Assembly (NCBI RefSeq): GCF_012849055.1
Contig: NZ_CP051677.1
Span: 1,750,501-1,814,500 of the forward strand
Direction: 5' to 3'
From: Spirosoma rhododendri
GTDB lineage: Bacteria; Bacteroidota; Bacteroidia; Cytophagales; Spirosomataceae
DNA: 64,000 bases
The notes below the pieces were generated by a model. That model saw only the letters and a list, made by a program, of their open reading frames with translations, searched no databases and was not told the origin of the DNA. Each line of letters starts with the position of its first letter. The first letter of the stretch is position 1. A program made the position numbers and the translations under genes. Shown here in pieces: positions 7,785-43,748 of this stretch.

Positions 7785-7863
7785 AAAGAGCGAAAGAATG
7801 AAAGAGTGAAAGAGCGACGGTTTCGGACAATCGCTCTTTCACTCTTTCATTCTTTCGCTCTTT
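7785..7863. repeat. Intergenic inverted repeat, family A (8-bp word AAAGAGYG)
   Basis: Two perfect 33-base arms (7785-7817 and 7831-7863) with a 13-base loop. Each arm is four 8-bp words of consensus AAAGAGYG. The element fills the gap between tpiA and the cupin gene, and one arm ends 2 bases from the tpiA stop. No strong T-tract follows on the minus strand, so it is not a standard terminator for tpiA. Confidence 0.95.
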
Positions 7864-7865
7864 TT

Positions 7866-8627
7866 TTAAGCCGCTTTTACAACAGTCGTAAAGTCGCGGG
7901 ATTTGAGCGACGCACCACCGATCAGGCCACCGTCGACGTCGGGTTGCGAGAAAAGCTCGGCGGCATTGGCTGCGTTGGCACTGCCGCCGTACAGAATCGT
8001 TGTATCCTGGGCTACTTCGTCGCCGTATTTACTGGCAATGTGCTGGCGGAGTTCAAAGTGCATATCCTGCGCCTGCCCCGACGAAGCCGTCAAGCCCGTA
8101 CCAATTGCCCAGATGGGTTCGTACGCAATCACAACCTTGCCAAACTCTTCCGCCGACAGGTGGAACAGGCTGTCGGTCAGTTGGCCTTTCACGTAGCCGA
8201 CGTAATCGCCGTTTTCGCGCAGCTCCCGCGATTCACCGCAGCAGAAAATCGGCGTCAGGCCGTTCTCCAGCACGACGTTTACTTTATCGGCCAGCGTCGC
8301 GTTAGTTTCGCCGAAGTATTGCCGCCGTTCGCTATGGCCCAGTATCACGTATTCAGCGCCGACCGACGACAGCATGTGCGCCGAGGCTTCACCGGTGTAA
8401 GCACCTTCTTTTTTCTCGTGGCAGTTCTGCGCGCCAAGCTTGATTCGGCCTTCGGTAGGGATGTACTGCCGGGCGGTGGTTAGGTAGATCGACGGCGGAC
8501 ACAGCACAACGGTAACATCGCTGGTTACTTCGTCCTGCACCATATGGATCACCTCCGACAAAAGAGCCTTTGCCTCGTCGAGGGTCTTGTTCATCTTCCA
8601 GTTACCGGCAACAATTTTCTTACGCAT
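7866..8627 (-). CDS. tpiA: Triosephosphate isomerase
   Basis: 253 residues, normal length. The enzyme interconverts dihydroxyacetone phosphate and glyceraldehyde 3-phosphate in glycolysis. Catalytic features are present: GNWKMNK with Lys11, VILGHSERR with the electrophilic His, AYEPIWAIGTG with the catalytic base Glu, and the phosphate-binding ILYGGSANAAN. It stands alone, with about 236 bases of noncoding DNA upstream and a family-A hairpin directly after the stop. Confidence 0.97.
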   Translation of the reverse strand: MRKKIVAGNWKMNKTLDEAKALLSEVIHMVQDEVTSDVTVVLCPPSIYLTTARQYIPTEGRIKLGAQNCHEKKEGAYTGEASAHMLSSVGAEYVILGHSERRQYFGETNATLADKVNVVLENGLTPIFCCGESRELRENGDYVGYVKGQLTDSLFHLSAEEFGKVVIAYEPIWAIGTGLTASSGQAQDMHFELRQHIASKYGDEVAQDTTILYGGSANAANAAELFSQPDVDGGLIGGASLKSRDFTTVVKAA

Positions 8628-8863
8628 ACTCAGGGGTTAATTTATTCATCAACAAGTACATACAGGGCCTGTAGCCTAAAGCAAACGGGCAATTTCTGGC
8701 CAAATTAGGGCTTTTCAGCCAAACCGGCCCGGTAGCGCTGGTCATAATTTGCCACGCCACGGCTATACCCAAGTATTTCTACGGAAAAATTAGAAAACAA
8801 CGCTTTTGTAGTTGTGTTTTTCGGATAAAAAATAAGTACATTCGAATACGAAACAACATTTAC

Positions 8864-10123
8864 ATGAAAACGCTGGGACTTGTCATCGGACTGCTTTGCT
8901 GCGGACTGGCCACACGTGCAAGTGACCCTCGCATGCCTGACCGCGACCGCTACGGCTTCTTCTTAAGCCAGAACCGTAAATGGACGCGGATACCATTTCA
9001 GTTACACTCCAATCTGATTATCGTTCCGGTACAGATTAACGGCTCTGACACGCTCAACTTCATTCTCGATACGGGCGTTGGACACACCATCATTACCGAC
9101 CCGGCTGCGCTGACGAGCCACGCAATGAACAAAACCCGGCGGATTAAACTAAGCGGGGCGGGGGAGGGCGCAAACCTGATGGCTAGTATCGCCATCGACA
9201 ACACGCTCAGCATGGGTGCGCTTCGGGCCAATCACCACAACATTGTGATACTCGACGAAGACATTCTGAAATTGTCTGAGTACGTCGGCACGCCCATACA
9301 CGGCATTTTTGGCTACGAAGTGTTCGAAAATTTCGTCGTTAACATCGACTTTCAACGGCGGGAGATCACGCTGATGAAGCCCGACAAATACCGCTATCGG
9401 AAGAGTCAGGGCGATCAGTTGCCGATTATTATTCAGGACACAAAAGTGTACAGCGATGCGCTGACTGTTTTCGATGGTGAGAAATCAACTCCGCTGCGGG
9501 TGGTGCTGGATACCGGCGCTGGACACGCGCTGTTGCTCAATCATGGGCAGGATGCGTCGATGTTGCCGTTGCCGGAGAAGGTGATCCGGGCGCAGCTGGG
9601 GCGGGGTCTGAATGGGGTTATCAACGGCAGCCTGGGACGCATCGGCAAAGTGCGGTTCGGGCGTTACGAACTGGCAAATATCCTGGCGTCGTTTCCCGAC
9701 AGTGTCGCCTACCGGGCCAAACTAATCGACATGCCGCAGCGGCAGGGCAATGTGGGCTGCGAGTTGCTGCGCCGGTTCAACGTCACGTTCAACTACCGGG
9801 GGCAATACATGGTCATGAAGCCGGTTCGGAAGATGATGCGTGAGCAGTTTGAGCACGACATGAGTGGGCTCGAATTACGCGCCAAAGGCGATCAGTTTCG
9901 CAGTTATTACGTCGGTCATGTTGCCGAAGGATCGCCTGCCGAAAAAGCCGGTCTGCACGAAGGCGACGAAGTGTTATTTATCAACAAAAGCTCGGCGAAA
10001 GAGCTGACGATAAGCGATATATACAAACTACTACAGGGCGGGGAAGGACGGGAGATGTCGTTGCTGGTTCGGCGTAGCGGTCAGGTTTTTGTTGCCGCCT
10101 TCGCCCTGAAGCGAATGATCTGA
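8864..10123 (+). CDS. Exported retropepsin-like aspartyl protease with PDZ domain
   Basis: 419 residues. A signal peptide (about 1-19, MKTLGLVIGLLCCGLATRAS) is followed by two aspartyl-protease half-domains, each with a catalytic triad: FILDTGVGH (Asp69) and VVLDTGAGH (Asp216). This is a single-chain, tandem form of the retroviral-type fold. A C-terminal PDZ domain (about 335-415) contains GSPAEKAGLHEGDEVLFIN. Such proteins occur widely in Bacteroidota as periplasmic or surface proteases of unknown substrate. The gene is monocistronic, ending at a family-B repeat that separates it from the convergent histidine kinase. Confidence 0.9.
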   Translation: MKTLGLVIGLLCCGLATRASDPRMPDRDRYGFFLSQNRKWTRIPFQLHSNLIIVPVQINGSDTLNFILDTGVGHTIITDPAALTSHAMNKTRRIKLSGAGEGANLMASIAIDNTLSMGALRANHHNIVILDEDILKLSEYVGTPIHGIFGYEVFENFVVNIDFQRREITLMKPDKYRYRKSQGDQLPIIIQDTKVYSDALTVFDGEKSTPLRVVLDTGAGHALLLNHGQDASMLPLPEKVIRAQLGRGLNGVINGSLGRIGKVRFGRYELANILASFPDSVAYRAKLIDMPQRQGNVGCELLRRFNVTFNYRGQYMVMKPVRKMMREQFEHDMSGLELRAKGDQFRSYYVGHVAEGSPAEKAGLHEGDEVLFINKSSAKELTISDIYKLLQGGEGREMSLLVRRSGQVFVAAFALKRMI

Positions 10124-10129
10124 TTGATA

Positions 10130-10205
10130 GTTTGAGGTTAAAAGTTTAATGTTTAAGGTTGTGTCGCCGTAAGAACTTTAAACCTTGAACCACAAACCTT
10201 AAACC
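10130..10205. repeat. Intergenic inverted repeat, family B (7-bp word GTTTAAK)
   Basis: The left arm (10130-10160) is a degenerate tandem array of 7-bp words of consensus GTTTAAG. The right arm (about 10174-10205) is the inverted counterpart, with about three quarters of positions pairing. It lies between two convergent genes and ends 1 base before the histidine kinase stop. Confidence 0.8.
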
Positions 10206-10206
10206 A

Positions 10207-11241
10207 TTAGTCCATCTTATCCAGCTTGAAGCGGAAGGTGGTGCCTTTATCGACTTTGCTCATCACCGTGATTTTGGCTTTGTGGGCGCTCAGGATGTGC
10301 TTCACAATGGCAAGGCCCAGCCCCGTACCGCCCCGGTCTTTGGAACGGCTCTTCTCAACCCGATAAAAGCGCTCGAAAATCCGGCTCAGGTGTTCGGGCG
10401 GAATACCGGGACCATCGTCACGCACCGACATAATAATGTGCTTTTTGTCTTCTTCCAGACTGACCAGCACCCGCCCATTCTCGTTGCCGTATTTCACCGC
10501 ATTTTCGATCAGGTTGGTCATCACCTGTCGAATTCGCTGATCGTCAGCTTTTACCCAAATGGGGCCGGGGAGCGATGTGCGCAGTCGCAACTGTGTGTGT
10601 TTTGCTTCGGCAATCTCCTCCAGCTGTTCGAAGATTTCCTGCGTTATCGACCGTATATCGACCCGCTCGAAATTCATCTTGATTTCGCCCGTTTCCAGTT
10701 GCGAAAGTGCCAGCAGATCCTTCACCAGCGCATCGAGTCCGTCGAGGCTTTTCGCGGCTTTCGACAAAAATTTATCGCGAACCCGTTCGTCGTCGACTGC
10801 CCCGTCGATTAGCGTGTGGATAAAGCCTTGTGCGGCAAAAATGGGCGTTTTCAGTTCGTGCGACACGTCGGCCAGAAATTCGCGTCTGAACTGCTCAAGC
10901 CGTTTCAGTTCGTCGATCTCTTTCTGCTTTTTGGTGACGTAGACAAAGAACTCAGCGTTCAGCTTCTTGAACGGATTATCGTCGCGGATAACGGCTTTTC
11001 GCGATAAGCTGAAGTCCCGAATTTTCAGTTGTCGGATGGTTTTGTACATCTTATCGACCTCGCGATACACGAGCAGTTCGATAGCGTACAGCACCAGAAA
11101 AAAAGAAATGGCGAAGCTGGAAAGCCCCACCACAAACAGCATACTATTGGTTACGTCGTCGACAAATGTCAGAAAGATGACCGGCACGACCGAAATCATG
11201 CAGGCCAGCAAAAAAGCAATAACGCGGGGACTGAGAGACAT
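10207..11241 (-). CDS. PhoR-like sensor histidine kinase
   Basis: 344 residues. Two transmembrane helices (about 8-27 and 35-58) are joined by a very short loop, so there is hardly any periplasmic sensor domain. HisKA carries EFLADVSHELKTP with the phospho-acceptor His128. HATPase_c shows the N box NLIENAVKYGN, G1 VRDDGPGIP, F box FERFYRVEKSRS and G2 GGTGLGLAIVKHIL. No PAS domain is visible. It follows the response regulator gene on the same strand, with a family-A hairpin filling the gap. Signal unknown; phosphate or envelope sensing would be a guess. Confidence 0.93.
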   Translation of the reverse strand: MSLSPRVIAFLLACMISVVPVIFLTFVDDVTNSMLFVVGLSSFAISFFLVLYAIELLVYREVDKMYKTIRQLKIRDFSLSRKAVIRDDNPFKKLNAEFFVYVTKKQKEIDELKRLEQFRREFLADVSHELKTPIFAAQGFIHTLIDGAVDDERVRDKFLSKAAKSLDGLDALVKDLLALSQLETGEIKMNFERVDIRSITQEIFEQLEEIAEAKHTQLRLRTSLPGPIWVKADDQRIRQVMTNLIENAVKYGNENGRVLVSLEEDKKHIIMSVRDDGPGIPPEHLSRIFERFYRVEKSRSKDRGGTGLGLAIVKHILSAHKAKITVMSKVDKGTTFRFKLDKMD

Positions 11242-11252
11242 AGCACGAAATT

Positions 11253-11328
11253 AAAGGTGAAAGAGCGAAAGAGTGAAAGAGCGATTATCCATGCGGTCGC
11301 TCTTTCACTCTTTCGCTCTTTCACCTTT
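11253..11328. repeat. Intergenic inverted repeat, family A
   Basis: Perfect 32-base arms (11253-11284 and 11297-11328), loop 12 bases, built from the same AAAGAGYG words as the copy at 7785 but in a different word order. It sits inside an apparent operon between the response regulator and its kinase. Confidence 0.95.
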
Positions 11329-11333
11329 TAAAC

Positions 11334-12041
11334 TTACTCGTTTTGGTCGGTGAACATGTAGCCGACGCCCTTTAGCGTGCGGATATGGGTGTCGCCGATT
11401 TTCTCGCGGAGTTTACGGATGTGAACGTCGACCGTGCGTTCGAGCACGTAGATGTCGGCCCCCCAGATTTTTTGTAGTAATTCTTCGCGGCTGAACACCT
11501 TGTTGGGGTGCTGCGCCAGGAAAAATAGCAGTTCAAACTCTTTCTTGGGGAGAATGATCGATTTATCGCCCTGACTGACCGAGTAGTTTTTCCGGTTGAT
11601 CGACAGGTCGGCAATTATGATCTGCTCACCCGGATCGGCCTTTTGCGCTTCCCGGCGGAACAGCGCGTTGATACGGCTCATCAGCGCCCGGGGCTTGATG
11701 GGCTTCGTGATATAATCGTCGGCCCCTACGTCGAAAGCAGCTACTTCAGAATACTCCTCCGAACGGGCTGTCAAGTACAGAATATAGGTTTGGCGTAGTT
11801 CCGGAATTTCGCGCAGCTGCCGTCCGGCTTCGATACCGTCCAGATGCGGCATCATAATGTCGAGCACGACAAGCTCAGGTAGATAGGTGCGGGCTACATC
11901 GAGCGCTTTGCGCCCGTCGGTAGCGGTGCGTACATCGTAACCTTCTTTAGTCAGATTGTACTCCAGCATCTCGACGATATCGGCATCGTCGTCAACGACC
12001 AGAATACGATGAAGTGGTTGGGCAGTTTTGCCAGCACTCAT
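11334..12041 (-). CDS. OmpR/PhoB-type response regulator
   Basis: 235 residues from the ATG at 12041 (MSAGKTAQ). A longer frame reaches back to 12122 but its extra residues do not resemble the family. Receiver domain: VVDDDAD acidic pocket, phosphorylation site Asp61 in VLDIMMP, the switch region around YLTARS and the conserved Lys in ITKPIKP. The C-terminal winged helix (LPKKEFELLFFLAQHPNKVF to RTLKGVGYMF) is of OmpR type. Its partner is the kinase at 10207. Both the spacing and the shared strand support a two-component pair. Confidence 0.93.
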   Translation of the reverse strand: MSAGKTAQPLHRILVVDDDADIVEMLEYNLTKEGYDVRTATDGRKALDVARTYLPELVVLDIMMPHLDGIEAGRQLREIPELRQTYILYLTARSEEYSEVAAFDVGADDYITKPIKPRALMSRINALFRREAQKADPGEQIIIADLSINRKNYSVSQGDKSIILPKKEFELLFFLAQHPNKVFSREELLQKIWGADIYVLERTVDVHIRKLREKIGDTHIRTLKGVGYMFTDQNE

Positions 12042-13490: not shown

Positions 13491-13495
13491 AAAGG

Positions 13496-13597
13496 AGTTT
13501 TATAGTTGTAAAGTTATAGGGTTGTAAGGTTGCTGGCGCGTCATGGCTGACGCCGGATAGCAACTTTACAACCCTATAACTTTACAACTATAAAACT
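13496..13597. repeat. Intergenic inverted repeat, family C (8-bp word TARRGTTR)
   Basis: Arms of 39 bases (13496-13534 and 13559-13597) pair with a single G-T wobble. Each arm is four consecutive 8-bp words of consensus TARRGTTR. The 24-base loop itself carries a GGCG/CGCC mini-stem. It lies between convergent genes, and the right arm runs into the stop codon of the LON-domain gene. Confidence 0.95.
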
Positions 13598-14225: not shown

Positions 14226-14247
14226 AACGACGAAAAGGTACGGTTTT

Positions 14248-19936: not shown

Positions 19937-20920
19937 ATGAGTAAAGCGGCCATTACAGGAATTCACGGTTACGTACCCGATTACGTGCTGACCAATGCTG
20001 AACTGGAGCGGATGGTCGATACCAACGACGAGTGGATTACGTCCAGAACGGGCATTCGTGAGCGGCACATTCTGAAAGGTGAAGGTATGGGCTCTTCGCA
20101 CATGGGAGCCAAAGCCGTACAGGGTCTCCTGGAGAAAACAAACACCCGGCCCGAAGACGTCGATCTGCTTATCTGTGCCACCACCACACCCGACTACGTA
20201 TTTCCCTGCACGGCGAACCTGATCTGCGATATGGTCGGCATTCGTAATGTCGGTAGTTTCGACATTCAGGCTGCCTGTTCGGGGTTTGTTTATGCCCTGA
20301 CAATCGGTTCGCAATTCATTGAAACGGGTAAGTACAAGAAGGTTATCGTCGTCGGAGCCGATAAGATGTCGTCTATCGTCGATTACACCGATCGGACGAC
20401 CTGCATATTATTTGGCGACGGGGCCGGGGCCGTAATGCTCGAATCTAACGACGAAGGTCTTGGTATCATTGACTCGATTATCAAGTCAGACGGGGTAGGA
20501 CAGAACCATTTGTTTCAAAAGGCGGGCGGGAGTCGCTACCCACCGACGCATGAGACCGTGGAAAAGCGCTGGCACTACGTCTATCAGGATGGTCCTTCGG
20601 TCTACCGGTTTGCGGTCAAGAACATGGCCGACGTGTCTGCTGAGATTATGGAGCGGAACAACCTGACCGGTGCCGATGTCGCCTGGTTAGTCCCGCATCA
20701 GGCCAATAAACGCATCATCGATGCTACGGCGCAACGTATGGGTATTGAGCCGGACCGGGTAATGATGACGATTCATAAGTACGGTAACACCACGGCGGCA
20801 ACGATTCCGCTGTGCCTGGCCGAGTACGAATCGCAGCTTAAGAAAGGAGATAACCTGGTGTTGGCTGCTTTTGGTGGTGGCTTCACCTGGGGTGCCGCTT
20901 ATGTTAAGTGGGCGTATTGA
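19937..20920 (+). CDS. fabH: Beta-ketoacyl-ACP synthase III
   Basis: 327 residues. FabH starts fatty-acid synthesis by condensing acyl-CoA with malonyl-ACP. The catalytic triad is visible: Cys114 in [12 protein letters not shown], His in [13 protein letters not shown] and Asn in [23 protein letters not shown] near residue 33 is the CoA-binding region. It follows plsX after 64 bases. Two family-D inverted repeats fill the 241 bases between fabH and efp. Confidence 0.96.
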
Positions 20921-20923
20921 TCC

Positions 20924-21010
20924 TGAACTGTGATTCGTTTGATTGCTTTGATGGACTTTGATTCAATAGAAATCAGCGAAATCAAAGTAATCAGCGTCAA
21001 TCACAGTTCA
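20924..21010. repeat. Intergenic inverted repeat, family D (about 9-bp word TGATTNNNN)
   Basis: The ends pair perfectly for 12 bases (TGAACTGTGATT at the left, its complement at the right). The interior of both arms is a degenerate array of TGATTNNNN words every 9-10 bases, so pairing is imperfect. It starts 4 bases after the fabH stop. Confidence 0.85.
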
Positions 21011-21018
21011 AGATTATC

Positions 21019-21122
21019 TGAACTATGATTTTTATGATTTACTGATTGCACAGATTTTTCTTTTGAATCATAGTCCATCAGCGTAATCAACATTAATCAC
21101 ACGGGGCCGCCCGGCGGTTCAG
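21019..21122. repeat. Intergenic inverted repeat, family D, second copy with GC-rich cassette
   Basis: It begins CTGAACTATGATT and its right arm ends ...GTTCAG. The right arm contains a GC-rich segment (ACACGGGGCCGCCCGGCGG, about 21100-21118) that the left arm lacks. The same segment sits in both arms of the copy at 38435-38557. This makes the copy look mosaic. Confidence 0.8.
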
Positions 21123-21161
21123 GAAAGAATATAATTTCAGATAAATCATAGTACAACAATA

Positions 21162-22304: not shown

Positions 22305-22390
22305 AAAGAGCGAAAGAGTGAAAGAGTGAAAGAGTGGTTCCATGCAGGATACTCTTTCGCTCTTTCATTCTTTCGCTCTTTCACTCTTTA
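22305..22390. repeat. Intergenic inverted repeat, family A, inside the acc operon
   Basis: The left arm has four AAAGAGYG-type words (22305-22334) and the right arm five (22351-22390). The best register pairs 31 positions, with mismatches that are G-T wobbles. It fills the gap between accB and accC and ends 7 bases before the accC ATG. Confidence 0.9.
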
Positions 22391-22397
22391 AACTGCC

Positions 22398-23744
22398 ATG
22401 TTCAAGAAAATTCTGATCGCCAACCGGGGTGAGATCGCACTGCGGATCATCCGTACCTGTCGGGAGATGGGTATCAAAACGGTAGCTGTATATTCGACCG
22501 CCGACCGCGATAGTCTGCACGTACGTTTCGCCGATGAGGCCGTATGTATCGGGCCTCCGGTCAGCAAACAATCGTACCTGAGCATTCCGAGCATCATTTC
22601 GGCGGCTGAAGTGACGGGCGCGGATGCTATTCACCCCGGCTACGGCTTTCTGTCGGAAAATGCCGAATTCTCCCAAATCTGCGCCGACTACGGCATCAAG
22701 TTCATCGGTGCAACGGCCGAGCAGATCAACGGCATGGGCGACAAGGCAACAGCCAAGGCGACCATGAAGATGGCTGGTGTACCGGTCATTCCCGGTTCCG
22801 ATGGCCTGCTGGAGTCGATTGAGCAGGGTAAGGAGCTGTCGGCTGAAATGGGCTATCCGGTCATCGTCAAGGCAACGGCTGGTGGTGGTGGTCGCGGGAT
22901 GCGGATCATCCGCTCAGAAGCCGATTTCGAGAAAGCGTGGAACGATGCCCGGACCGAAGCCGGTGCCGCCTTTGGCAACGATGGTCTGTACCTAGAGAAG
23001 TTCGTTGAAGAACCCCGCCACATCGAGATTCAGATCGTTGGTGACCAGTACGGTAAAGTGTGCCACCTGTCGGAGCGCGACTGCTCAATTCAGCGTCGGC
23101 ACCAAAAACTGGTCGAGGAAACGCCATCGCCGATCATTACGCCCGAACTGCGCGAGCAGATGGGTGCTGCGGCTATCAAAGGTGCGCAGGCTATCGGCTA
23201 CGAAGGTGCCGGTACGGTCGAGTTTCTGGTCGACAAACACGGGAAGTTCTATTTCATGGAAATGAACACCCGGATTCAGGTCGAGCACCCGATTACGGAA
23301 GAGGTAACGGACTTTGACCTGATTAAAGAGCAAATCAAAGTAGCGGCTGGCGCGGAGATTTCGGGCCGAAACTATACACCGAAGCTGTACGCTATGGAAT
23401 GCCGTATCAACGCCGAAGACCCCGGTAATGGCTTCCGTCCGTCGCCGGGTAAGATCACGGTGCTGCATATGCCCGGTGGTCATGGCGTGCGCGTCGACAG
23501 CCACGTGTACACCGGCTACACCATTCCACCGAACTACGACTCGATGATCGCCAAGCTGATCGTGTCGGGGCAGTCGCGGGAGGAAGTAGTGACGCGGATG
23601 AAGCGGGCCTTGCAGGAGTTCGTGATCGAAGGCATCAAAACCACGATTCCGTTCCACATCAAGCTCATGGACGATCCCGGTTTTCAGTCAGGACAGTTCA
23701 CAACCGCTTTCCTCGAGACGTTCGATTTCTCGACACTAAAGTGA
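22398..23744 (+). CDS. accC: Acetyl-CoA carboxylase biotin carboxylase subunit
   Basis: 448 residues. It carboxylates biotin on AccB using ATP and bicarbonate. Recognised: [35 protein letters not shown], the ATP-grasp glycine loop [12 protein letters not shown], the [14 protein letters not shown] strand, the catalytic [16 protein letters not shown] and the C-terminal RINAEDP. Length and order are normal. The stop codon is at once the start of a family-A hairpin (23744). Confidence 0.98.
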
Positions 23745-23821
23745 AAGAGTGAAAGACTGAAAGAGCGAAAGAGTGATCGTCTGCGTCAGCAACCATTCGC
23801 TCTTTCAGTCTTTCACTCTTT
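23744..23821. repeat. Intergenic inverted repeat, family A, at the accC stop
   Basis: Perfect 26-base arms (23744-23769 and 23796-23821), loop 26 bases. The first base of the left arm is the last base of the accC stop codon. One word carries ACTG in place of AGYG and the change is matched in the other arm, so pairing is kept despite the word change. Confidence 0.95.
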
Positions 23822-23830
23822 GAATGCGGT

Positions 23831-23877
23831 AAAAAAGGTGGGGTTTGGTGCTTTGGCATCCAAACCCCACCTTTTTT
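23831..23877. terminator. Perfect 18-bp hairpin ending at the symporter ATG
   Basis: Arms 23831-23848 and 23860-23877 pair fully, with A6 at the left end, T6 at the right end and an 11-base loop. It has the form of an intrinsic terminator for accC. The T-run is followed directly by the ATG at 23878, leaving no free leader. It may also hide the start site of the symporter gene. Confidence 0.85.
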
Positions 23878-25514
23878 ATGAATCACCTTGCCACGGCCGA
23901 TTACCTTGTCTTTCTGACTTACTTCGTTATCGTCGTCGGCTATGGCTATTGGGTGTATCAGCGTCGGCGCAAGGCGGAAACGAACACTACCGACTTCTTT
24001 CTGGCCGAAGGATCGCTGACGTGGTGGGCTATCGGCGCGTCGCTGATTGCGTCGAACATATCAGCGGAGCATTTTATCGGCATGGCCGGGTCGGGCTTCG
24101 CGATGGGACTAGCCATCTCGTCGTATGAGTGGATCGCAGCCGGTACGCTGGTTATAGTAGCCGCGTTTTTCATTCCGATCTACCTGCGAAACCACATCTA
24201 CACCATGCCACAGTTTCTGGCCCAGCGGTACAGCGACACGGTCAGCACGATTCTGGCCGTTTTCTGGCTAGTGGTCTACGTGGTGGTCAACCTTACATCG
24301 ATTCTATTTCTGGGGGCAATGGCCATCGAGTCGCTGGCCGGTATTTCGTTCACTACTTGCACCGTCGGGCTGGCCCTGTTTGCCATTTTTATCACGCTGG
24401 GCGGCATGAAGGTGATTGGCTACACCGACGTCATTCAGGTGATCGTGCTGGTCATCGGCGGGCTGGTAGTAACGTATCTGGCTCTCGAACTGGTCGCTGA
24501 TCGGAGTGGTACGGCGGGGGTGATGAACGGGCTGGCGCAGCTGCGCGACCGTGCCGATAGTCACTTCCACATGTACTTCGAGAAAGGACATCCGCACTAC
24601 CTCGAATTGCCGGGACTGTCGTTGGTGCTGGGGGAATGTGGATCAACAACCTGTACTATTGGGGCTGTAATCAATACATCGTGCAGCGGGCGTTAGGGGC
24701 TGATTTGAAAACGGCCCGGAGCGGTATTCTCTTTGCCGCCTTTCTGAAGTTAATGATTCCGATCATCGCTGTTATTCCCGGCATTGCCGCGTTTGTGCTG
24801 TATCAGGAAGGGTCGTTCCGGGCAGCTATGACCGATGTGTCGGGTGTTGTCAAGCCCGACCATGCGTACCCGGTGCTGATGAATCTGTTGCCGATCGGTA
24901 TGAAAGGGCTGGCCTTTGCCGCACTGACGGCCGCCGTAGTCGCGTCGCTGGCGGGGAAGGCCAACTCCATTTCGACCATTTTTACGCTCGACCTGTACCG
25001 GAAATATGTAGAGCCGCAGGCGTCGGAGCAAAAGCTGGTGCGCGTCGGGCGGTGGGCGGTCGTGCTGTCATTTGTGGTGGCAATTGCGCTGGCACCCCTG
25101 CTGCGTTCACTCGATCAGGTATACCAGTATATTCAGGAATATACCAACTTCATCACGCCCGGCATTTTCGCTATTTTCCTACTGGGCTTTTTCTGGAAAC
25201 GGGCGACCAACCGGGCCGCGCTGACGGTGGCTGTCCTGACGCTCCCCCTGTCGCTACTGCTAAAATTCTGGCCGGAAGTTACTGGCTTACTGGGTGACGC
25301 GGCCGACCCGATTCCGTTCCTCCATCGGACTATGTGGGTGTTCTGCATCGATATTGCCCTGATGGTCGTTGTCACGCTGACCGACCCGGCAAGTCACCGA
25401 CCGCATGGTACGGTTACTGTTGAACGGTCATTGTTCCGCGTAACGCCCTCCTTCGTGGTCGGCTCGGTCGGTATTTTTGGGGCGCTGGCAGTGCTGTACA
25501 CCCTGTTCTGGTAG
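23878..25514 (+). pseudogene. SGLT-like sodium:solute symporter, frameshifted
   Basis: Two frames (23878 to about 24634, then 24636-25514) join into one protein of about 545 residues if one base is added to the G5 run at 24630-24634. That restores LGGMWINNLYYWGCNQYIVQR, a signature of the SGLT branch of the SSS family. N-terminal DYLVFLTYFVIVVGYGYWVY, FFLAEGSLTWWAIGASLIASNISAEHFIG and GYTDVIQVIVLVIGGLV are core SSS helices. Sugars or inositol are likely substrates, since the inositol oxygenase gene follows. Whether the break is real or a base-calling error cannot be decided from this sequence. Confidence 0.85.
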
Positions 25515-25605: not shown

Positions 25606-26463
25606 ATGATGATCGATCAGAATGCTCCTCTTGCCAGCCTTGAGCTATGGGAAGACGACGTAATTAGCCGCTATCCCGAACCGGATCACAAGGCGAAAGA
25701 AGATTACCGGAACTACGACACGCCCGAGCGCGATACCGTGCGGGAATTCTACCGGCTCAACCACACGTATCAGACCTACGATTTCGTGCAGGAGAAGAAA
25801 GCAAACTTCCTGGCGTTCGATAAGAAAGAGCTGCCAGTCTGGAGCGCGATGGAGTTTCTGAACACACTCGTCGATGATTCGGACCCTGATACCGACCTCG
25901 ATCAGTTGCAACACCTGCTGCAAACTGCCGAAGCTATCCGCGCCGACGGCCACCCCGACTGGTTTGTCTTGACGGGCTTCCTGCATGACATGGGAAAAGT
26001 GCTATGTCTGTTCGGTGAGCCGCAGTGGGCCGTCGTGGGCGACACATTCCCGGTGGGCTGTAAGCATTCCGACAAGATCGTTTACCCCGAATTTTTCGCG
26101 GCAAACCCCGATTCGTACGACGAGCGGTACAACACGAAGTACGGCGTCTACAAACCAAACTGCGGGTTGAAAAACGTCGATATGTCGTGGGGGCACGATG
26201 AGTACCTGTACCACATCACGAAGGATTACCTGCCGGAGCCTGCGCTGTACATGATCCGGTACCACTCGTTCTATTCGCAGCACCGCGAGCATGCCTATAA
26301 CCACCTGCTCGACGATCACGATCACGAGATGTTCAAGTGGGTGAACAAGTTCAACCCGTACGACCTGTACTCGAAGAGTCCGAAGCCGCCAGTTGTCAGC
26401 GAATTGAAGCCCTACTACGAAGACCTGATCGCTAAATACCTGCCCGCGACGATCCGGTTGTAA
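25606..26463 (+). CDS. Inositol oxygenase (MIOX)
   Basis: 285 residues, the same length as mammalian MIOX. The enzyme cleaves myo-inositol with O2 to D-glucuronate using a di-iron centre. All six iron ligands of the mammalian enzyme have counterparts: His103 ([11 protein letters not shown]), His127 and Asp128 (FLHDMGK), His197 (MSWGHDEY), His220 (MIRYHSFY) and Asp253 (NPYDLYSK). Two Na+:solute symporter genes flank it, suggesting a transport and oxidation unit for inositol. MIOX is mainly eukaryotic and occurs in scattered Bacteroidota, so transfer in the distant past is plausible. Base composition does not differ visibly from its neighbours. Confidence 0.95.
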
Positions 26464-26471
26464 GTTTATTT

Positions 26472-26534
26472 TCAACACAGAGGCACAGAGAGCACAGAGT
26501 TTATTTCTTTGTGGTCTCTGTGCCTCTGTGTTGA
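26472..26534. repeat. Intergenic inverted repeat, family E (8-bp word CACAGAGR)
   Basis: Perfect 20-base arms (26472-26491 and 26515-26534), extendable by 8 more pairs with two mismatches. The arms are made of CACAGAGR words spaced 8-9 bases apart. It fills the gap between the inositol oxygenase gene and the second symporter gene. Confidence 0.9.
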
Positions 26535-26543
26535 TAAGAACCT

Positions 26544-30948: not shown

Positions 30949-31944
30949 ATGAAATACAACGTTCTCGCTATCCTTCTTTTTCTTGGTTGCGCTATCACGA
31001 CGCAGTTTTTCAGTCAGCGCGTTCAGGCGCAAACCACCGCATCGGCTGGTATGACGGCTGACCAGGCCAAAGCGGTCAAGGCTATCAAAATTGCCAATCT
31101 GGATAAAGACACCTATTTCAAATCAGGCGGGTATATTCTCGATCGCTACGAAGAGCGCCCGGCTTACGTGTTTACCTACAGTGACGGGATTACGCGCAAA
31201 ATCTACCTCTACAAGATTTTTGCTGCTTCCGACACGAAAGAGCTGGGCCTGCTGGCGATCTACCAGAATGGCAAAACCAACGAAACGAAGTCGTTCGTTA
31301 TCCCCGGCGAATCGGCCGACCGCAAAGCGTGGGATCTGTACATCGACGATCTGAAATACGTGGGCGAAAAAGAGCCGGGCCTGATGTCGACGCTGACGTT
31401 CGTGCTGTCGCGCGAGATGGCGTCGCTGCTGAGTGGTGGCGGTGCCAAGAGCGAAGACGGCGGCAAGAAGAAGGAAGAGTACAATTTCTGCTTCGCGGCC
31501 AACGCGCCTGTGTTGCTGCCCAACGGCTCGGCCAAATCAATCGACGCCGTACAGGTAGGCGAACCGATCATGGCGTATGACGCAAAAACGAATGCACAGA
31601 TCGTAACCCGCGTAACCCGCGTCGACAAACACGACGGGCAATTTGCGCTGACGGGCGTATGGCTGTCGCCCCTGAGCGAACTGTCGGCCGATAACACGAT
31701 CACACCAACGGCCCCTGTGCTGCTCGAAGCCACTGTCAATCACCCTGTCCTGACCGCGTCGGGCCGGAAACCAATGGGCGACCTGACCGCTGCTGACGTC
31801 CTATACCGACTGGAGAATGGCAAAGCGATTCCGTACCGCGTCGTCAAAACCGAAAAAACGACCCGCACCGTATCGACTGTCTATAATTTAGCTACTGAAG
31901 CTGGTGCCTACGTTGTCGGTGAAACGGTGGTATTGGATAAGTGA
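30949..31944 (+). CDS. Exported protein with C-terminal Hint (Hedgehog/intein) domain
   Basis: 331 residues from the ATG at 30949, chosen over the upstream ATG because it begins a signal peptide (about 1-28, ending RVQAQ). Residues 30-170 form a domain I do not recognise, then a charged Gly/Lys linker. The Hint domain starts at Cys181 in NFCFAANAPVLL and continues with SIDAVQVGEPIMAYD, ATVNHPVLT with the block B His265, and VYNLATEAGAYVVGETVVL. The closing His-Asn of inteins is absent and nothing follows the domain, as in Hedgehog-type proteins, so cleavage could release or modify the N-terminal part. It follows the Tat amine oxidase gene closely. Confidence 0.85.
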   Translation: MKYNVLAILLFLGCAITTQFFSQRVQAQTTASAGMTADQAKAVKAIKIANLDKDTYFKSGGYILDRYEERPAYVFTYSDGITRKIYLYKIFAASDTKELGLLAIYQNGKTNETKSFVIPGESADRKAWDLYIDDLKYVGEKEPGLMSTLTFVLSREMASLLSGGGAKSEDGGKKKEEYNFCFAANAPVLLPNGSAKSIDAVQVGEPIMAYDAKTNAQIVTRVTRVDKHDGQFALTGVWLSPLSELSADNTITPTAPVLLEATVNHPVLTASGRKPMGDLTAADVLYRLENGKAIPYRVVKTEKTTRTVSTVYNLATEAGAYVVGETVVLDK

Positions 31945-32031
31945 GTTTAAGGTTCAACGTCTAATGTTTAAGGTTGTCTCTCCACTACGAGTGGCCTTCA
32001 ACTTTAAACCTTGAACAACAAACATTAAACC
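31945..32031. repeat. Intergenic inverted repeat, family B
   Basis: The left arm (31945-31976) and right arm (31995-32031) are arrays of GTTTAAG-type 7-bp words in opposite orientation, partly paired. It starts at the base after the stop of the Hint gene. Confidence 0.85.
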
Positions 32032-32037
32032 CCAAAA

Positions 32038-32080
32038 CAAAGAACGACCGGGCTTTACCGCCCGGTCGTTCTTTGTTTTG
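32038..32080. terminator. Intrinsic terminator, perfect 16-bp stem
   Basis: Arms 32038-32053 and 32060-32075 pair fully around a 6-base loop (TTTACC). CTTTGTTTTG follows. It terminates the Hint gene operon just after the family-B repeat. Confidence 0.85.
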
Positions 32081-33395: not shown

Positions 33396-33397
33396 TC

Positions 33398-37778: not shown

Positions 37779-37812
37779 CGCCCAAATTAAATTTGGATAA
37801 TCAAACCTAGTA

Positions 37813-38232: not shown

Positions 38233-38245
38233 CCATTGATTGTCC

Positions 38246-38332
38246 TGAACTGTGATTTTTGTGATTACGCTGATGGGCTATGATTTCTTTTCTGAATCTG
38301 GCCAATCAATTAATCAGGTGAATCACGGTTCA
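38246..38332. repeat. Family-D inverted repeat, copy 1 of 3
   Basis: Starts TGAACTGTGATT and ends with its near-complement. The arms contain TGATTNNNN words about every 9 bases. It begins 14 bases after the ndk stop. Confidence 0.85.
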
Positions 38333-38337
38333 TATTG

Positions 38338-38430
38338 TCTAAACTGTGATTCACCTGATTACGCTGATGGACTGTGATTTCTTGTTCATGAATCAGTGAA
38401 ATCAATTAATCAGGTGAATTAAAGTTCAGA
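38338..38430. repeat. Family-D inverted repeat, copy 2 of 3
   Basis: Same design as copy 1, with clear 9-base steps (TGATTCACC, TGATTACGC, TGATGGACTG). The outer bases pair less well than in copy 1. Confidence 0.85.
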
Positions 38431-38434
38431 CAGT

Positions 38435-38557
38435 CTTGAACCGCCGGGCGGCCCCGTGTGATTCATCTGATTGCTCTGATAGACTATGATTACTTTTTTT
38501 GAATCAGCGAAATCAAAGCAATCAAACGAATCACACGGGGCCGCCCGGCGGTTCAAG
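38435..38557. repeat. Family-D inverted repeat, copy 3 of 3, with GC-rich cassette in both arms
   Basis: The outer 29 bases of each arm pair perfectly (38436-38464 with 38528-38556) and contain the GC-rich cassette CCGCCGGGCGGCCCCGTG. The inner parts are the usual TGATTNNNN words. With copies 1 and 2 it fills the 334 bases between the convergent ndk and nth genes; no gene is seen there. Confidence 0.92.
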
Positions 38558-38566
38558 ACACACAGT

Positions 38567-39202: not shown

Positions 39203-39262
39203 AACAATAAGCACCCGGACGTTGCCACCCGGGTGAGTAAAAGCCAAAAATCCACCAGACCA

Positions 39263-39514: not shown

Positions 39515-40088
39515 AACTCGGCGAACGTTTGCTTAATTGTTTACGCAAATTGATCAACGCGTAACGCATACGTCCCAATGCCGTGTTAATGCTGACTCCG
39601 GTTGCATCGGCGATCTCCTGGAAACTCATTTCCTCGTAGTGCCGCATAATTAGAACCTGCCGCTGCTGCTCTGGCAATCGCTGAATCAGCTCGCGCAGAT
39701 GCTCGTGTGTCTCCTGCCGTATCTGCATCGACTCAACCGAGTCTTCTGCAAACTCAAGCGTATTGAACACGCTGCTCCCGTCTTCAAACACTACACTGGG
39801 GTAGCGTTTATCTTTGCGGAAATAGTCAATAGCCAAGTTGTGGGCGATCCGAATAATCCAGGGGAGAAACTTGCCTTCTTCGTTGTATTTACCCGACTTG
39901 ATGGTGTCTACGGCCTTGATGAACGTATCCTGCATTAAGTCTTCAGCTACGTACTGATCTTTGACAATCAGATAAATAGTTGTGTAAATCTTCGATTTGT
40001 GCCGTTGCACAAGCTTAGCGAAGGCCTTTTCGTTACCACGGATATACAGGGAAATCAACTCACTGTCGTTTACCTGGGCTTTTTCCAT
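39489..40088 (-). CDS. ECF RNA polymerase sigma factor
   Basis: 199 residues. Region 2 shows as ELISLYIRGNEKAFAKLVQRHKSKIY, VAEDLMQDTFIKAVDTI and FLPWIIRIAHNLAIDYFRKDKR. Region 4 is LPEQQRQVLIMRHYEEMSFQEIADATGVSINTALGRMRYAL. Unlike the sigma gene at 5147 it has a complete N-terminus. The downstream 83-residue gene overlaps it by 26 bases. A 374-base A/T-rich region lies upstream. Confidence 0.95.
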   Translation of the reverse strand: MEKAQVNDSELISLYIRGNEKAFAKLVQRHKSKIYTTIYLIVKDQYVAEDLMQDTFIKAVDTIKSGKYNEEGKFLPWIIRIAHNLAIDYFRKDKRYPSVVFEDGSSVFNTLEFAEDSVESMQIRQETHEHLRELIQRLPEQQRQVLIMRHYEEMSFQEIADATGVSINTALGRMRYALINLRKQLSKRSPSYDKNIYPR

Positions 40089-40462
40089 TTTCAGTAAGAC
40101 TATTAAGTAACGTAGAGCCGTGTTTCGATAGTGTGCGTCGGGTTTATGTTTTTGAAATTACTGACAGGCAGGAATCAAAATAAAGTGATTATTTTCTCAT
40201 TTCCAAATGGATAAATCAAATAATCTGCCAAAAGTAGGGAAATGGCTATTTAAATCGGAAAAAATTCATTTCGCCAAATAAGCCCCGTTTCAATGTCGAA
40301 TTAAGGCTTATTCGGTGATTATATTGACTATAGCCAAGAAATATTTGTATAGACACTAGCAGGAATGCAATAGTTTAACAGGGAGTAGAATTTTTATTAT
40401 ACCAAGAATGTAACTGATTGGATACATTTCGGGTAGCAAGAGAAATTTAATCCGATTTTATA
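40089..40462. other. A/T-rich noncoding region upstream of the ECF sigma gene
   Basis: 374 bases, clearly richer in A and T than the genes around it, with no reading frame that I accept. It must contain the minus-strand promoter of the sigma gene. No long hairpin of the A-E families is present. It may hold several promoters or an upstream control region. Confidence 0.5.
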
Positions 40463-41041
40463 CTAGGCCAGATTCAAGCGCTTTTCGATGAGCAGAATAA
40501 ACAGGTGAATCACTTTTATGTGAATTTCCTGAATGCGGTCGGCATAGCCAAAGTGCGGCACCCGGATCTCGACATCGGCCTGACCTGCCAGCTTGCCGCC
40601 GTCTTTACCAGTCAACAGAACTATCTGCATACCCCGCTGCCGGGCGGCTTCTACGGCCCGGATTATGTTAGCAGAATTGCCGCTCGTGCTGAGGCCCAGT
40701 AACACGTCGCCTTCGTTGCCCAGCCCCTCGATAAAGCGCGAGAAGACGTGATCGTAACCGAAATCGTTACTGACGCAGGAAAGGTGACTGACATCGGAGA
40801 TGGCAATAGCGGCCAGGGCCCGGCGATTGTCGCGGTAGCGGCCCGACAGCTCTTCAGCGAAGTGCATCGCGTCGCAGTGGGAGCCGCCGTTGCCGCAGGA
40901 GATGATTTTATGACCGCTGCCGATGGCGTTGGCCATAAGCTGAGCTGCCCGATCGATAGCGGTCAGATTGGCTGGGTCGGCTAAGAAAGCGTCCAGTACG
41001 GTCTGCGCTTCGGTCAGTTCGCTACGAATAAGATCAAGCAT
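40463..41041 (-). CDS. gmhA: Sedoheptulose-7-phosphate isomerase
   Basis: 192 residues from the ATG at 41041 ([16 protein letters not shown]); an ATG 24 bases upstream is also possible. It makes D-glycero-D-manno-heptose 7-phosphate for lipopolysaccharide. Agreement with E. coli GmhA is visible at [53 protein letters not shown] and [19 protein letters not shown], covering the zinc-site and SIS-domain residues. Its upstream neighbour on the same strand encodes an outer-membrane barrel, which fits surface-polysaccharide work. Confidence 0.95.
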
Positions 41042-41124
41042 TGTTGGATTCTGAAATGTGGGCACAAAGTTGCCGGATTACCGTTCGTGGCACAACGGCG
41101 GACTTTTATGCGTTTGTAAAATGG

Positions 41125-42908
41125 CTAGAACATCAGGCTGCGATACGGCACGTTCCAGCGCAGGGCGATGCTGGCGGTACGGTCAGTGTAGCTGTTGGGG
41201 CGGTACTGGCTATCCTGAAAACGATACAGCAGCCGACCTTCCAGAAAGACGTTGTGTTTGATCATATACGACGCCCGCAGGTCGGCATAGGTAGCGATGG
41301 TTTTACGGCCCTGTCCAATGAAGTTATCATATTTTCGAAAGGCAGTCTCGTAGTCAAGCAAGATGTTACCGCCGTAGTTTCGACTTGGTGGATCAGTGCC
41401 ATACATCATCACGCTGAACGTACCAGTGCCTGACAGGCGCTTGTTCTGATAGCGTACGATGCCAATCCCCTCTGCAAAGTTTGCCCCCAGCGGATGGGCC
41501 ATTGGCTGGCTGTAGTGTACGTAATTGGCCTGACTGGCTGCAACGCCCTGGTCAGGTATTGCTTTGTGCGAATAGGTGTACGGGCGTGCCAGATTCATCT
41601 CAACCTGTAGGTCCAGATTGGGTACGTTCAGCACATCAATGTACTTACCGCCAAGTTGAAAGGCGAACTTATTTGTGTAGCTACCATTACCTGCAATGAT
41701 GTCCTTCAATATGAACTCATCCAGCATGAACTGCGTGTAGAACAGGAAATGCGTTGCCAGGTTGGCCTTGAAATCAAGCCCGATCATAGCGTTGTCAGTG
41801 CTACCCCGATATGACTCGACAAAGCGGTAAAAGATTACAGGATTCAGGTAATTAAGCTCTAAACGGTCGCGACTGAACACCTCCGCTTCAAACACGCCCA
41901 GATTGAACTTGGGCGATATATTGATGCTCAAGTGGTGCATTGCCGCATATTTACTCGGGTTCAATACGTTACCGCTTGGAAGGTCCTGGGTGTTTTGAAG
42001 TTCAGTAAACAGGTTAGTGTACTGAATATTTTTACCGAGCCTTGTAGTTAGCTTCAGGAATAAGTAAGGAGGGGCGTTGTCGGAGAGTAGTAACGACCGG
42101 AAACCGTTACCAATGAAGTTACGGTCGTGCCCAAACTGTAGGTTGATGATTTTGGCAATGTTGAAAGTGAAATAGCCTCTGGCTGTTAGAAAATCAGTGC
42201 CACGTGTGCCGAAGCTTTTCGTAAAGCTTTCTCCTGGTGCGTATCCCCCTTGTCCACTTCGTTGGTATAGTCGCGACTGATCGTTGATGTAATACGGGTA
42301 GATAGCCTGGTTATCAGCAAAGTAGGAGTAGAACCCGATCTTTTTAGCGATGCTGCCACGGATCTCCAGTCCCCGGGTGTTGATGAATGTTTGTTGTGTG
42401 AGCGTAGCTGCATTGTCGGGCAACCCGGCAACGTTATCGACACCAATACCGAAATTGACTACCGGGCTGACGTGCAGATCGAAATCGGGTGATTGCAGGT
42501 TATAGAAATCAGCTTTTTTCTTGTAAAACACGCCGAACAGCGGTCGCCGACTGTCGCCGGGGGCGGGGGAGCTTGTAGCCGACGAGTGGCCACTGCCCGG
42601 CGAGCTGAGTCGCTAATTGGGTCTTTCACCCATTCCCAGCTATCGTCGCGCAGGTAGTTGAGGTTGAAATAGTCGGTATCCGAGAAGTCGGCAGCGGGGT
42701 GGGCCAGCAGGCTATCGGTTAGCTGCACCACGCTCTGCCGGTTGTATGGCTTCGTGGTCGAGTGGAAACCTTCCGCCCAGTGCCCCTGCCGGATTTCGTA
42801 CCGATCGATAAGGTGGTAGTAATCAGCGTTGAGCGGTACGAAGGGGCTTTGCGCGAAGGTCGGCAGTGAAAGAAGAACGAGCCCAAACAGGTAGAGAGAT
42901 GTACGCAT
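41125..42908 (-). pseudogene. Outer-membrane beta-barrel protein (Wzi/RemB-like), frameshifted
   Basis: Two minus-strand frames join into about 594 residues if one C is added to the C-run at 42559-42563 or 42565-42569 (G-runs on the plus strand). The joined sequence then reads through PPPPGDSRRPLFGVFYKKKADF. The N-terminus has a signal peptide (MRTSLYLFGLVLLSLPTFAQ) and a helical start, and the rest is strand-rich with alternating aromatic residues typical of a barrel, as in the capsule-assembly Wzi family and the gliding protein RemB. The match to these families is by general pattern, so the function is tentative. It lies just upstream of gmhA. Confidence 0.65.
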
Positions 42909-43045
42909 AAACAGTCGTTAACCTTGTAAACCAATTGGAGTTGTCAATGGGTTGAAAAGGGTACTGTGGAAGGTGTCAAATTAAATGATTGGTTTGGATA
43001 TACGCCAACTGGGGGCTAATTTACACCGAATCAGATACGCCTACT

Positions 43046-43692
43046 ATGTTTGTTTTTGCACAGCAACCCTCGCTGGCTAATCAATTCGTTGCTGAACTCC
43101 GCGACGTTACGCTTCAAAAAGATCGGCTACGGTTTCGGCGGAATCTGGAGCGGCTGGGTGAACTGATGGCTTACGAAATATCAAAAGAGATGCCACACCA
43201 TACCGTCGACGTAAAAACGCCCCTTGGTACGGCGTCGACGGAGCTGTTGCGGCAACAGCCGGTGCTGGCAACGATTCTGCGAGCGGGTTTGCCATTTCAT
43301 CAGGGCTTCGCTAATTACTTCGACGGTGCAGAAAATGCTTTTGCCGGTGCATATCGGGGTATAGTGCTGGCGATGAAGAGAATTTCGAGATCGCAATGGA
43401 TTACATCGTGGCGCCCGACCTGAGCGGTAAGACACTGATTCTGTGCGATCCGATGCTGGCGACTGGTAGATCGCTGGAGAAGGTATACCACGCGCTGCTA
43501 CGCTACGGTATACCGGCCCAAACGCACATTGCCGCTGTATTGGCCAGCTCTGAAGGTGTCCGGCATGTACAACGACAACTACCTCAGTGCCGCCTGTGGC
43601 TGGGTGCGATCGACGACCACCTCAACGACCACTTCTACATCGTTCCCGGCCTCGGCGACGCCGGCGATCTGGCGTTTGGTCAAAAAGTTTAA
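43046..43692 (+). pseudogene. upp: Uracil phosphoribosyltransferase, frameshifted
   Basis: The first part (MFVFAQQPSLANQFVAELRD to the region before 43359) has the UPRT N-terminal half with LRDVTLQKDRLRFRRNLERLGELMAYE and ATILRAGLPFHQGF. The second frame carries the rest, with the PRPP motif LILCDPMLATGRSLEKV and the uracil-binding YIVPGLGDAGDLAFG. Adding one G to the G4 run at 43356-43359 restores YRGYSAGDEENFEIAMDYIV and a 215-residue protein of normal length. UPRT salvages uracil to UMP. It ends in a family-B repeat. Confidence 0.88.
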
Positions 43693-43748
43693 CGTTTAAT
43701 GTTTAAGGTTCAAGGTTCCTCCGGTGCGTAAAACCTTGAACATTAAAC
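43687..43748. repeat. Intergenic inverted repeat, family B
   Basis: The left arm (43687-43717) has four GTTTAAN words and overlaps the upp stop codon; the right arm (43730-43748) ends at the stop codon of the convergent LolA-like gene. Confidence 0.85.

Follow-up and report, generated by a model that had tools for sequence, protein, structure and literature searches.

The genome of Spirosoma rhododendri (6.05 Mb; G000 in our coding) carries intergenic hairpins whose arms are each a tandem array of a short degenerate word, most of them lying directly beside a stop codon. We place at about even odds (probability approximately 0.5) the reading that these gene-end hairpins are kept for their form while being rewritten in their letters. 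The analysis followed up an earlier note on a 64-kb stretch of this genome (G000:C1:1750501-1814500, referred to below as the window), which had described such hairpins at twelve places, sorted them into five word families (A to E) and treated them as one class. The observation was confirmed: inverted repeats are present at all twelve places, ten of them recovered by an inverted-repeat listing and two (10130 and 31945, with indels in the arms) by eye, and the arms are tandem arrays with TRF periods of 7 or 8 in A, B and C and of 9 in D and E. The interpretation as a whole was partly supported.

Tandem-word hairpins at gene ends

The census comprised the window and 60 stretches of 20 kb (61 stretches, 1.264 Mb), two of which (L150 and L170) lie immediately outside the window, the others being spread along the chromosome. 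Gene ends and starts were called by script from codon usage (1001 genes, 81% coding). Intergenic inverted repeats with arms of at least 14 nt and a family word were counted, families being assigned by regular expressions; the ungapped finder used here misses hairpins with indels in the arms. Under this rule we detected 125 tandem-word hairpins (A 21, B 39, C 14, D 11, E 13, H 20, I 7), 97 of them with a score of at least 16. The families H (word GAATGAKT, as common as A: 20 vs 21) and I (7 copies) had been missed in the earlier note.

The same rule applied to dinucleotide-shuffled census stretches yielded 29 inverted repeats, one of which contained a family word. Inverted repeats of any kind scoring at least 16 numbered 226 in 1264 kb (216 intergenic, 5 mostly within genes) and 0 in 599 kb of shuffled sequence (30 of the 61 stretches). 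A gapped scan of 1200 kb identified 66 tandem-word hairpins, compared with none in shuffled sequence; with periods of 6-10 allowed, the best period was 8 in 44 of them, 7 in 21 and 9 in one. The family A pattern matched 61 and 63 times on the two strands, a balance expected of paired arms in a count that took in no unpaired arrays, and its reversed version 0 and 0 times; reversed-pattern controls gave 0 in S. rhododendri in five pattern counts. Low-complexity arms do inflate weak matches, and one shuffled inverted repeat carried a family word. Nevertheless, since shuffles and reversed patterns yield almost nothing (125 vs 1 under the same rule, 66 vs 0 in the gapped scan), chance or a compositional artefact is refuted as the origin of the hairpins. 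Searching the window against Rfam at gathering thresholds gave no match.

With divergent sites excluded, 91 of 110 hairpins are found no more than 15 nt from a predicted stop codon (61 at 0-15 nt) or overlap it by up to 30 nt (30 hairpins), compared with 7.6% expected from random placement within gaps, in a model that permits no gene overlap. Copy number and position at gene ends were among the checks, set out in the earlier note, on which the class could fail, and the numbers obtained (125 copies in 1.264 Mb, and the 91 stop-adjacent sites) spoke in its favour. The proximity to stops claimed in the earlier note holds for most members of A (18/18), B (31/37), H (18/19), C (7/9), E (10/13) and I (5/5), but not for D (2/9). 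Among the 123 hairpins with both neighbouring genes known, 80 lie in co-oriented, 30 in convergent and 13 in divergent gaps (random-placement shares 0.565, 0.169 and 0.266, i.e. ~21 convergent and ~33 divergent expected). The ungapped inverted repeat of A, B, C and H covers a median of 0.79 of the gap in 62 co-oriented and of 0.98 in 21 convergent cases, and 54 of 232 co-oriented gaps of 60-160 nt contain a tandem-word hairpin. By eye, family C hairpins were also seen between apparent tRNA genes (G000:C1 ~1848952-1849700, in L150); the class may therefore not be limited to the ends of protein genes.

The hairpins are polar. The word stands in the 5' arm in A (21/21), B (38/39), H (19/20), C (14/14), E (13/13) and I (7/7), while D is evenly divided (6 vs 5); as an inverted repeat is read identically from either strand, the arm that carries the word is a real property of the site. 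Pooling A, B, C, H and I, G outnumbers C in the 5' arm at 62 of the 66 co-oriented sites (with 3 opposite and 1 tied) and at every one of the 22 convergent and 12 divergent sites, copies within one family being non-independent in these counts. The skew is nearly nil in D and E.

These properties do not describe one uniform class. The core consists of A, C, H and probably B, which have a period of 7 or 8, are stop-adjacent and gap-filling, and have a G-rich 5' arm and a C-rich 3' arm. Family D, whose units have the ends TGAACTRTGATT, is a separate, clade-specific dispersed palindrome: it has 113 matches in S. rhododendri, 74 in G030 and 28 in G021, and 0-1 in each of the other 33 genomes of the genus. 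Family E lacks both the skew and a loop motif, GCTGACGC, that was found (with at most one mismatch, in loops of at least 8 nt) in 12 of 20 H, 12 of 14 C and 5 of 20 A hairpins, where about one would be expected in each family. In B it occurs in 4 of 36 loops, not clearly above chance, and it is absent from the D, E and I loops of at least 8 nt in the census. The motif contains CGTC, at the apex. Median loop lengths of A, B, C and H range from 21 to 49 nt. The proposal that the families share a form and differ in their words was thus supported, although to say that they differ completely in sequence was too strong: A, C and H have this motif in common, and the A and H words (GAAAGARY, GARTGAKT) neighbour each other and grade into one another, with mixed intermediates in some species.

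Intergenic space is also occupied by non-tandem dispersed palindromes, namely the families GTCATCCCGA, CAGCATCCTGCTG, CCCCTGAAGGGG, GTAGCCTGGAC and GTAGAGACGC (L111-L170), some with similar loops. In L134 a Y1-transposase-like match (4581-4823, within L134:4400-5231; G000:C1 ~971400-972231) has CAGCATCCTGCTG (X2) palindromes on either side, as expected of a RAYT and its REPIN family.

The same gaps in related genomes

The gap between accB and accC was read in 30 of 36 genomes of the genus, including S. rhododendri; those left out were G008, G012, G024 and G028 (orthologues unread), and G002 and G021 (no close orthologue). Relatives are coded by G-number and, being related, are non-independent observations. 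The hairpin in this gap scores at least 16 in 27 of the 30 genomes (the score of S. rhododendri was entered by hand from the inverted-repeat listing, as the automatic stop-finder missed the site), and 8-9 in G007, G029 and G033, in which the words are recognisable but imperfect. The best arm period was 8 in all 26 automatically scored hairpins.

A word label (A, H or other) was assigned to all 30 hairpins by a script rule and mapped on the accC tree, where it requires 11 changes (the least possible being 2); well-supported branches alone force 6 changes for A and 6 for H. Shuffled labels need a mean of 11.7 changes and were as low as observed in 80 of 200 trials, so no phylogenetic signal is seen in the word label. 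Even the nearest relative of S. rhododendri, G030 (AccC 99% identical), has an H hairpin where S. rhododendri has an A.

This pair was compared over 420 kb of the S. rhododendri chromosome and a 393-kb contig of G030, which share 203 adjacent orthologous gene pairs; 164 gaps reach 45 nt or more in at least one of the two genomes. Of 21 gap pairs labelled tandem in either genome, one (1572351) was dropped as an ordinary terminator and the remaining 20, a set that is not exhaustive, were read by eye; within the window all gap pairs below 700 nt were compared. A hairpin was present in both genomes at all 20 sites, which, together with the accB-accC gap, bears out the expectation that sites are kept in relatives. 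Ten sites carry the same family in both genomes, six another kind, and four B sites have changed to a dialect of B, designated B'. Switches from S. rhododendri to G030 were observed from A to H (3/4), from C to a non-tandem hairpin (2/5), from E to CCCCTGAAGGGG (1/1) and from B to B' (4/6), while H (2/2) and D (2/2) were unchanged. Pattern counts (B 71 vs 1, B' 85 vs 328 in S. rhododendri and G030, respectively) agree with a dialect shift between the two.

Automatic labels were less favourable: the 18 sites labelled tandem in S. rhododendri corresponded in G030 to seven of the same family, three of another tandem family, three other hairpins, three terminators and two empty gaps. This labelling misses hairpins with indels (the two "empty" gaps of G030 and three "none" gaps of S. 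rhododendri hold imperfect hairpins by eye) and was wrong at two sites (the terminator at 1572351, and 1782444, which is B). Median gap identity between the two genomes was 0.61 for tandem gaps (n=17), 0.73 for gaps with no inverted repeat (n=89), 0.69 for terminators (n=14) and 0.54 for other inverted repeats (n=7). Taken together, the comparison suggests that at given gaps it is the shape rather than the sequence that is kept.

The hairpins of the window, with the state of the site in G030 where it was recorded, are as follows ("terminator-like" is defined here by a loop of at most 13 nt, and such hairpins are listed for comparison).

7785..7863: family A hairpin, cupin-tpiA gap; arms 7785-7817 and 7831-7863, 33/33 paired; H hairpin at the site in G030
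10130..10206: family B hairpin, convergent gap; 7-bp word, indels in the arms, by eye; B-like in G030
11253..11328: family A hairpin, gap between response regulator and histidine kinase; 32/32 paired; H-type with a nested insert in G030
13496..13597: family C hairpin; 97% over 39 bp, loop GGCGCGTCATGGCTGACGCCGGAT; non-tandem hairpin at the site in G030
20920..21014: family D palindrome, first unit, fabH-efp gap
21014..21155: family D, second unit; nested GC-rich palindrome piece at ~21095-21115 (by eye)
22305..22389: family A hairpin, filling the accB-accC gap (accB end 22301, accC start 22398)
23740..23821: family A hairpin overlapping the accC stop codon; 26/26 paired at 23744-23821; family A with a similar loop in G030
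23830..23878: terminator-like hairpin without tandem words, beside the family A hairpin at the accC stop
26463..26543: family E (CACAGAG) hairpin, MIOX/symporter gap; CCCCTGAAGGGG hairpin and E remnant in G030
31943..32029: family B hairpin with indels in the arms, limits by eye; followed by the next hairpin
32033..32080: terminator-like hairpin; 21/21 paired, loop 6
38242..38559: three clustered family D palindromes, ndk/endonuclease III gap; the last with nested GC-rich ends, the first unit by eye
43687..43748: family B hairpin, convergent gap; B' words (GTTTACGG-like) at the site in G030

A GC-rich palindrome piece (CCGGGCCGCCGGGCGG-like) is nested in hairpins of several families (window 21095-21115 and 38440-38555; loops in L115, L143 and L144), as if one repeat were inserting into others. 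Two genes of the window deserve mention: the sodium:solute symporter gene (23845-25514) is divided between two overlapping frames, the corresponding part of G030 being one frame, and the uracil phosphoribosyltransferase gene (42989-43692) may be split, since its frame 43396-43692 matches the second half of the domain only.

Beyond the genus, we analysed 80 named loci around accC (1497 kb; the best 80 of 576 matches, nearly all Bacteroidota by title), among which the best AccC matches listed were from Dyadobacter and other Cytophagales. accB adjoins accC in all 80, with a gap of at least 45 nt in 54. Of these gaps, 24 are tandem-periodic (p <=0.03) and 29 fold at z <=-2; both hold for 14 gaps, whose period is 7 in 10 and 8 in 4 cases. 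The words, read by eye, include AAATTAG in Pontibacter, TTTGAAAA in Rufibacter, TTTTAGAT in Flavobacterium and GATGTGCA in Mucilaginibacter. G-first polarity was observed in 21 and the opposite in 3 of the 24 tandem gaps, compared with 8:11 and one tie in the 20 gaps with p >0.2 (10 gaps with intermediate p were left out). Scanning the 80 loci de novo with gaps allowed gave 18 tandem-word hairpins, and none after shuffling; ten lie in the accB-accC gap, which, the loci being centred on accC, is the only region common to all. One Bacteroidia locus, from a metagenome-assembled genome, contains three tandem-word hairpins with unrelated words (L071:4348-9939) within 21 kb, which suggests that its lineage is another one rich in such hairpins.

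Putative traces of copying and the possible origin of the hairpins

Two studies describe arm homogenisation and loop inversion as results of polymerase template switching (PMC8604942, PMC8794818). Both hallmarks are present in the tandem-word hairpins, and loop inversion occurs between closely related species. Homologous loops of the tpiA-cupin gap are inverted between G004 and both G020 and G027, between G025 and G026, and between G016 and G034 (4 inverted and 2 direct loop pairs in all); at accB-accC, 4 pairs are inverted and 8 direct, partly between distant species. The two arms of a locus agree with each other more than arms of different loci do: the observed agreement was reached by 0 of 1000 permutations for A and H, 9 of 1000 for C and B', and 64 of 1000 for B (arms were located by word alone, and the A set includes 30 loci fetched for matching A). 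Agreement between arms, a check set out in the earlier note, thus held for A, H, C and B', and B alone did not reach significance. Arms differ by whole words. Loops are homologous between loci in 21 of 465 A pairs, 22 of 28 C pairs and 5 of 120 H pairs (shuffles 0), and the signal is weak in B (7/325 vs 1 shuffled) and lacking in B' (0/91 vs 1 shuffled). Mirrored arms and flipped loops are the pattern expected from template switching, and we infer this process from them; traces of a common DNA process, which the earlier note had suggested as one possibility beside a common reader, are therefore supported, apart from the non-significant mirroring in B.

Several observations weigh against the reading of hairpins kept for form, to which that non-significant B result also belongs. 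The form is looser at the tpiA-cupin gap, where 19 of 30 genomes score at least 16 (mostly tandem words, one of E type) and the remaining gaps hold weaker, terminator-like or REP-like hairpins, the gap of G002 being 2 nt. In 26 of the 80 named loci the accB-accC gap is shorter than 45 nt, and the hairpin is therefore dispensable there. The loop motif GCTGACGC is not exclusive to the core, as it exceeds shuffles in the non-tandem X5 (5/8) and X2 (5/21) and in unclassified hairpins (9/37), and it is weak both in B and in the tpiA-cupin loops of relatives (1/18). Co-oriented gaps of S. rhododendri without a hairpin are G-first too, more weakly (39 vs 20, n=61). Finally, tandem-word hairpins of the census show no strand bias (G.U:A.C mismatches 56:46; sense strand more stable in 36, antisense in 43), whereas terminator-like hairpins are sense-biased (11:3, two-sided p 0.057; 25:10, p 0.017). 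Neither the tandem accB-accC gaps of Bacteroidota (14:10) nor the tpiA-cupin gaps (10:7 and 11:8) change this picture. The only set leaning to the sense strand is accB-accC in the genus (22:10 and 19:8, p ~0.05, related genomes), and since this is one site in one genus, selection on the RNA strand is not claimed.

Mobile elements of the REPIN or MITE (miniature inverted-repeat transposable element) type, inserted beside stops by a transposase acting in trans and replaced when new copies insert into older hairpins, would account for the bursts seen in few species (B with 71 matches in S. rhododendri, 6 in G021 and 0-1 in other congeners; D with its 113, 74 and 28), for loops that are homologous between loci with word order partly shared, and for the non-tandem X2 hairpin on both sides of the Y1-transposase-like frame in L134. 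We nevertheless regard this as unlikely: by eye there is no empty site among the 20 syntenic sites, Y1_Tnp was not found in G003 despite the 47 A and 30 H matches there, and the one Y1_Tnp match of S. rhododendri (E 4e-8) lies in a 20-kb stretch without a tandem-word hairpin in the ungapped census. GTAG/CGTC tags, which occur at the outer ends of 9 of 12 X5/X6 hairpins, were present in 13 of 94 A, B, C and H hairpins, compared with 17% in random DNA. Y1/RAYT transposition as a requirement for tandem-word hairpins was rejected on the evidence of G003. Slightly more doubtful still is a purely mutational origin without any use, in which palindromic slippage builds and repairs hairpins wherever DNA is unconstrained, mainly in intergenic gaps. 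The marks fit a DNA process, a general RNA-strand signal is lacking, and tandem gaps align less well (0.61, n=17) than those lacking inverted repeats (0.73, n=89). Such a process leaves open, however, why the accB-accC site is kept across the genus and the same gap is a hot spot in other Bacteroidota, why unrelated words have the same polarity, and why 30 convergent and 13 divergent sites of 123 were found instead of ~21 and ~33.

The hairpins could also be ordinary RNA hairpins (weak terminators or protectors of mRNA 3' ends) altered by one-by-one compensatory mutation, with the repetition of words being incidental. Their position directly after stops and their filling of gaps (medians 0.79 and 0.98), the sense-strand lean of the genus accB-accC site, and the fact that terminator-like hairpins likewise change sequence between S. 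rhododendri and G030 all agree with this. Yet it predicts G.U intermediates on the sense strand, which are shown by terminator-like hairpins and not by the tandem-word hairpins of the census, and leaves loop inversion, words common to several loci and the 7-8 bp period unexplained; we consider it improbable.

If hairpins are indeed kept for form and rewritten in letters, each arm, as an array of a 7-8 bp word, would be able to slip by a single word; polymerase template switching, in which one arm is copied from the other, would keep the arms mirrored and flip the loop; and copying from other loci would give a site new content while leaving it where it is, and might let word dialects spread through the genome. 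A stem-loop over the RNA that ribosomes leave free between a stop codon and the following gene could be useful whatever its letters. It might keep Rho and 3' exonucleases off the gap and so tune the expression of adjacent cistrons, accB and accC among them. If the C-rich arm were made first, it would offer Rho a free loading stretch, while one made second would pair at once, which would fit the G-first polarity; the role of Rho is a proposal only and counts as a further reservation. We judge an RNA function to be likely from sites that are held, gaps that are filled and a polarity that is similar across unrelated words. A different idea, that C-poor 5' arms provide translation stops in many frames, was dropped as a general rule (letter-shuffled arms reached the observed level in 0 of 100 trials for A, C and H, and in 81 of 100 for B).

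More tentatively, and with the odds somewhat against it, the hairpins may form a phylum-wide class defined by form: stop-adjacent, gap-filling hairpins of 7-8 bp words with the G-rich arm first, whose letters would be rewritten by template switching and inter-locus copying faster than species diverge, and which selection would hold between gene pairs such as accB-accC, where they would control the expression of both cistrons. If this is true, conserved function can hide where alignments show little, and searches based on sequence would miss a hairpin that is kept while its sequence is replaced. The hairpins would also offer a natural, replicated case for asking whether template switching maintains nucleic-acid hairpins, and accB-accC a defined operon for the role of an intercistronic hairpin with fixed polarity. 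The polarity, alike across unrelated words, is an unexplained and directly testable regularity.

Comparison with known systems

No description of hairpins with tandem-word arms was found in the open-licence literature, among the matches listed. Integron attC sites are structure-defined palindromes located just after stop codons; the likeness is by analogy only, as the hairpins described here lie in conserved chromosomal gene pairs, e.g. accB-accC. Cyanobacterial STRR sequences are heptamer direct repeats. Arrays of this kind resemble ours in being head-to-tail, intergenic, ~7 bp in period (7 or 8 in 65 of 66 hairpins here) and patchy between species, but they are direct repeats, whereas our arrays were found as the two arms of hairpins. 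For TAACTGA repeats, 169 direct sets and one indirect set are reported, with occurrence also in five Bacteroidetes (PMC4679880); GGGNATC repeats are located between aligned ORFs, many of them close to a stop codon (PMC4692102).

REP (repetitive extragenic palindromic) sequences and the related BIMEs and REPINs, for which roles in termination and mRNA stability have been suggested (PMC3733652, PMC3116915), are likewise dispersed intergenic hairpins of high copy number. They consist of consensus stems with an end tag, while the arms described here are made of tandem words, and at a fixed site these words differ from species to species. Instead of a conserved palindrome, members of A, B, C and H share words, with arm order and length varying and orthologous sites swapping families; GTAG/CGTC is not enriched at their outer ends; and the presence of hairpins does not follow Y1 transposase genes (PF01797 was not found in G003, and the single match of S. 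rhododendri is flanked by X2). Intrinsic terminators share with our hairpins the position after a stop codon and the turnover of sequence, but differ from them in their shorter loops and, relative to the hairpins of the census, in their sense-strand bias. The combination of short loop and T-run does not characterise A, B, C and H, as TTTTT occurs at the outer end of 7 of 94 of these hairpins, compared with 21 of 83 terminator-like ones.

Stem-loops of inverted copies of a short word, e.g. DNA uptake sequences, have been proposed as terminators (PMC2267715). They too have a repeated short word in both arms, with one word per arm and a single genome-wide word, compared with several copies per arm and several words per genome here. 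In arm homogenisation and loop inversion, the hairpins resemble quasipalindromes altered by template-switch mutation; those changes have been described as scattered events, whereas in S. rhododendri the process would work on hairpins with tandem-word arms that occur genome-wide, as a class, at the ends of genes.

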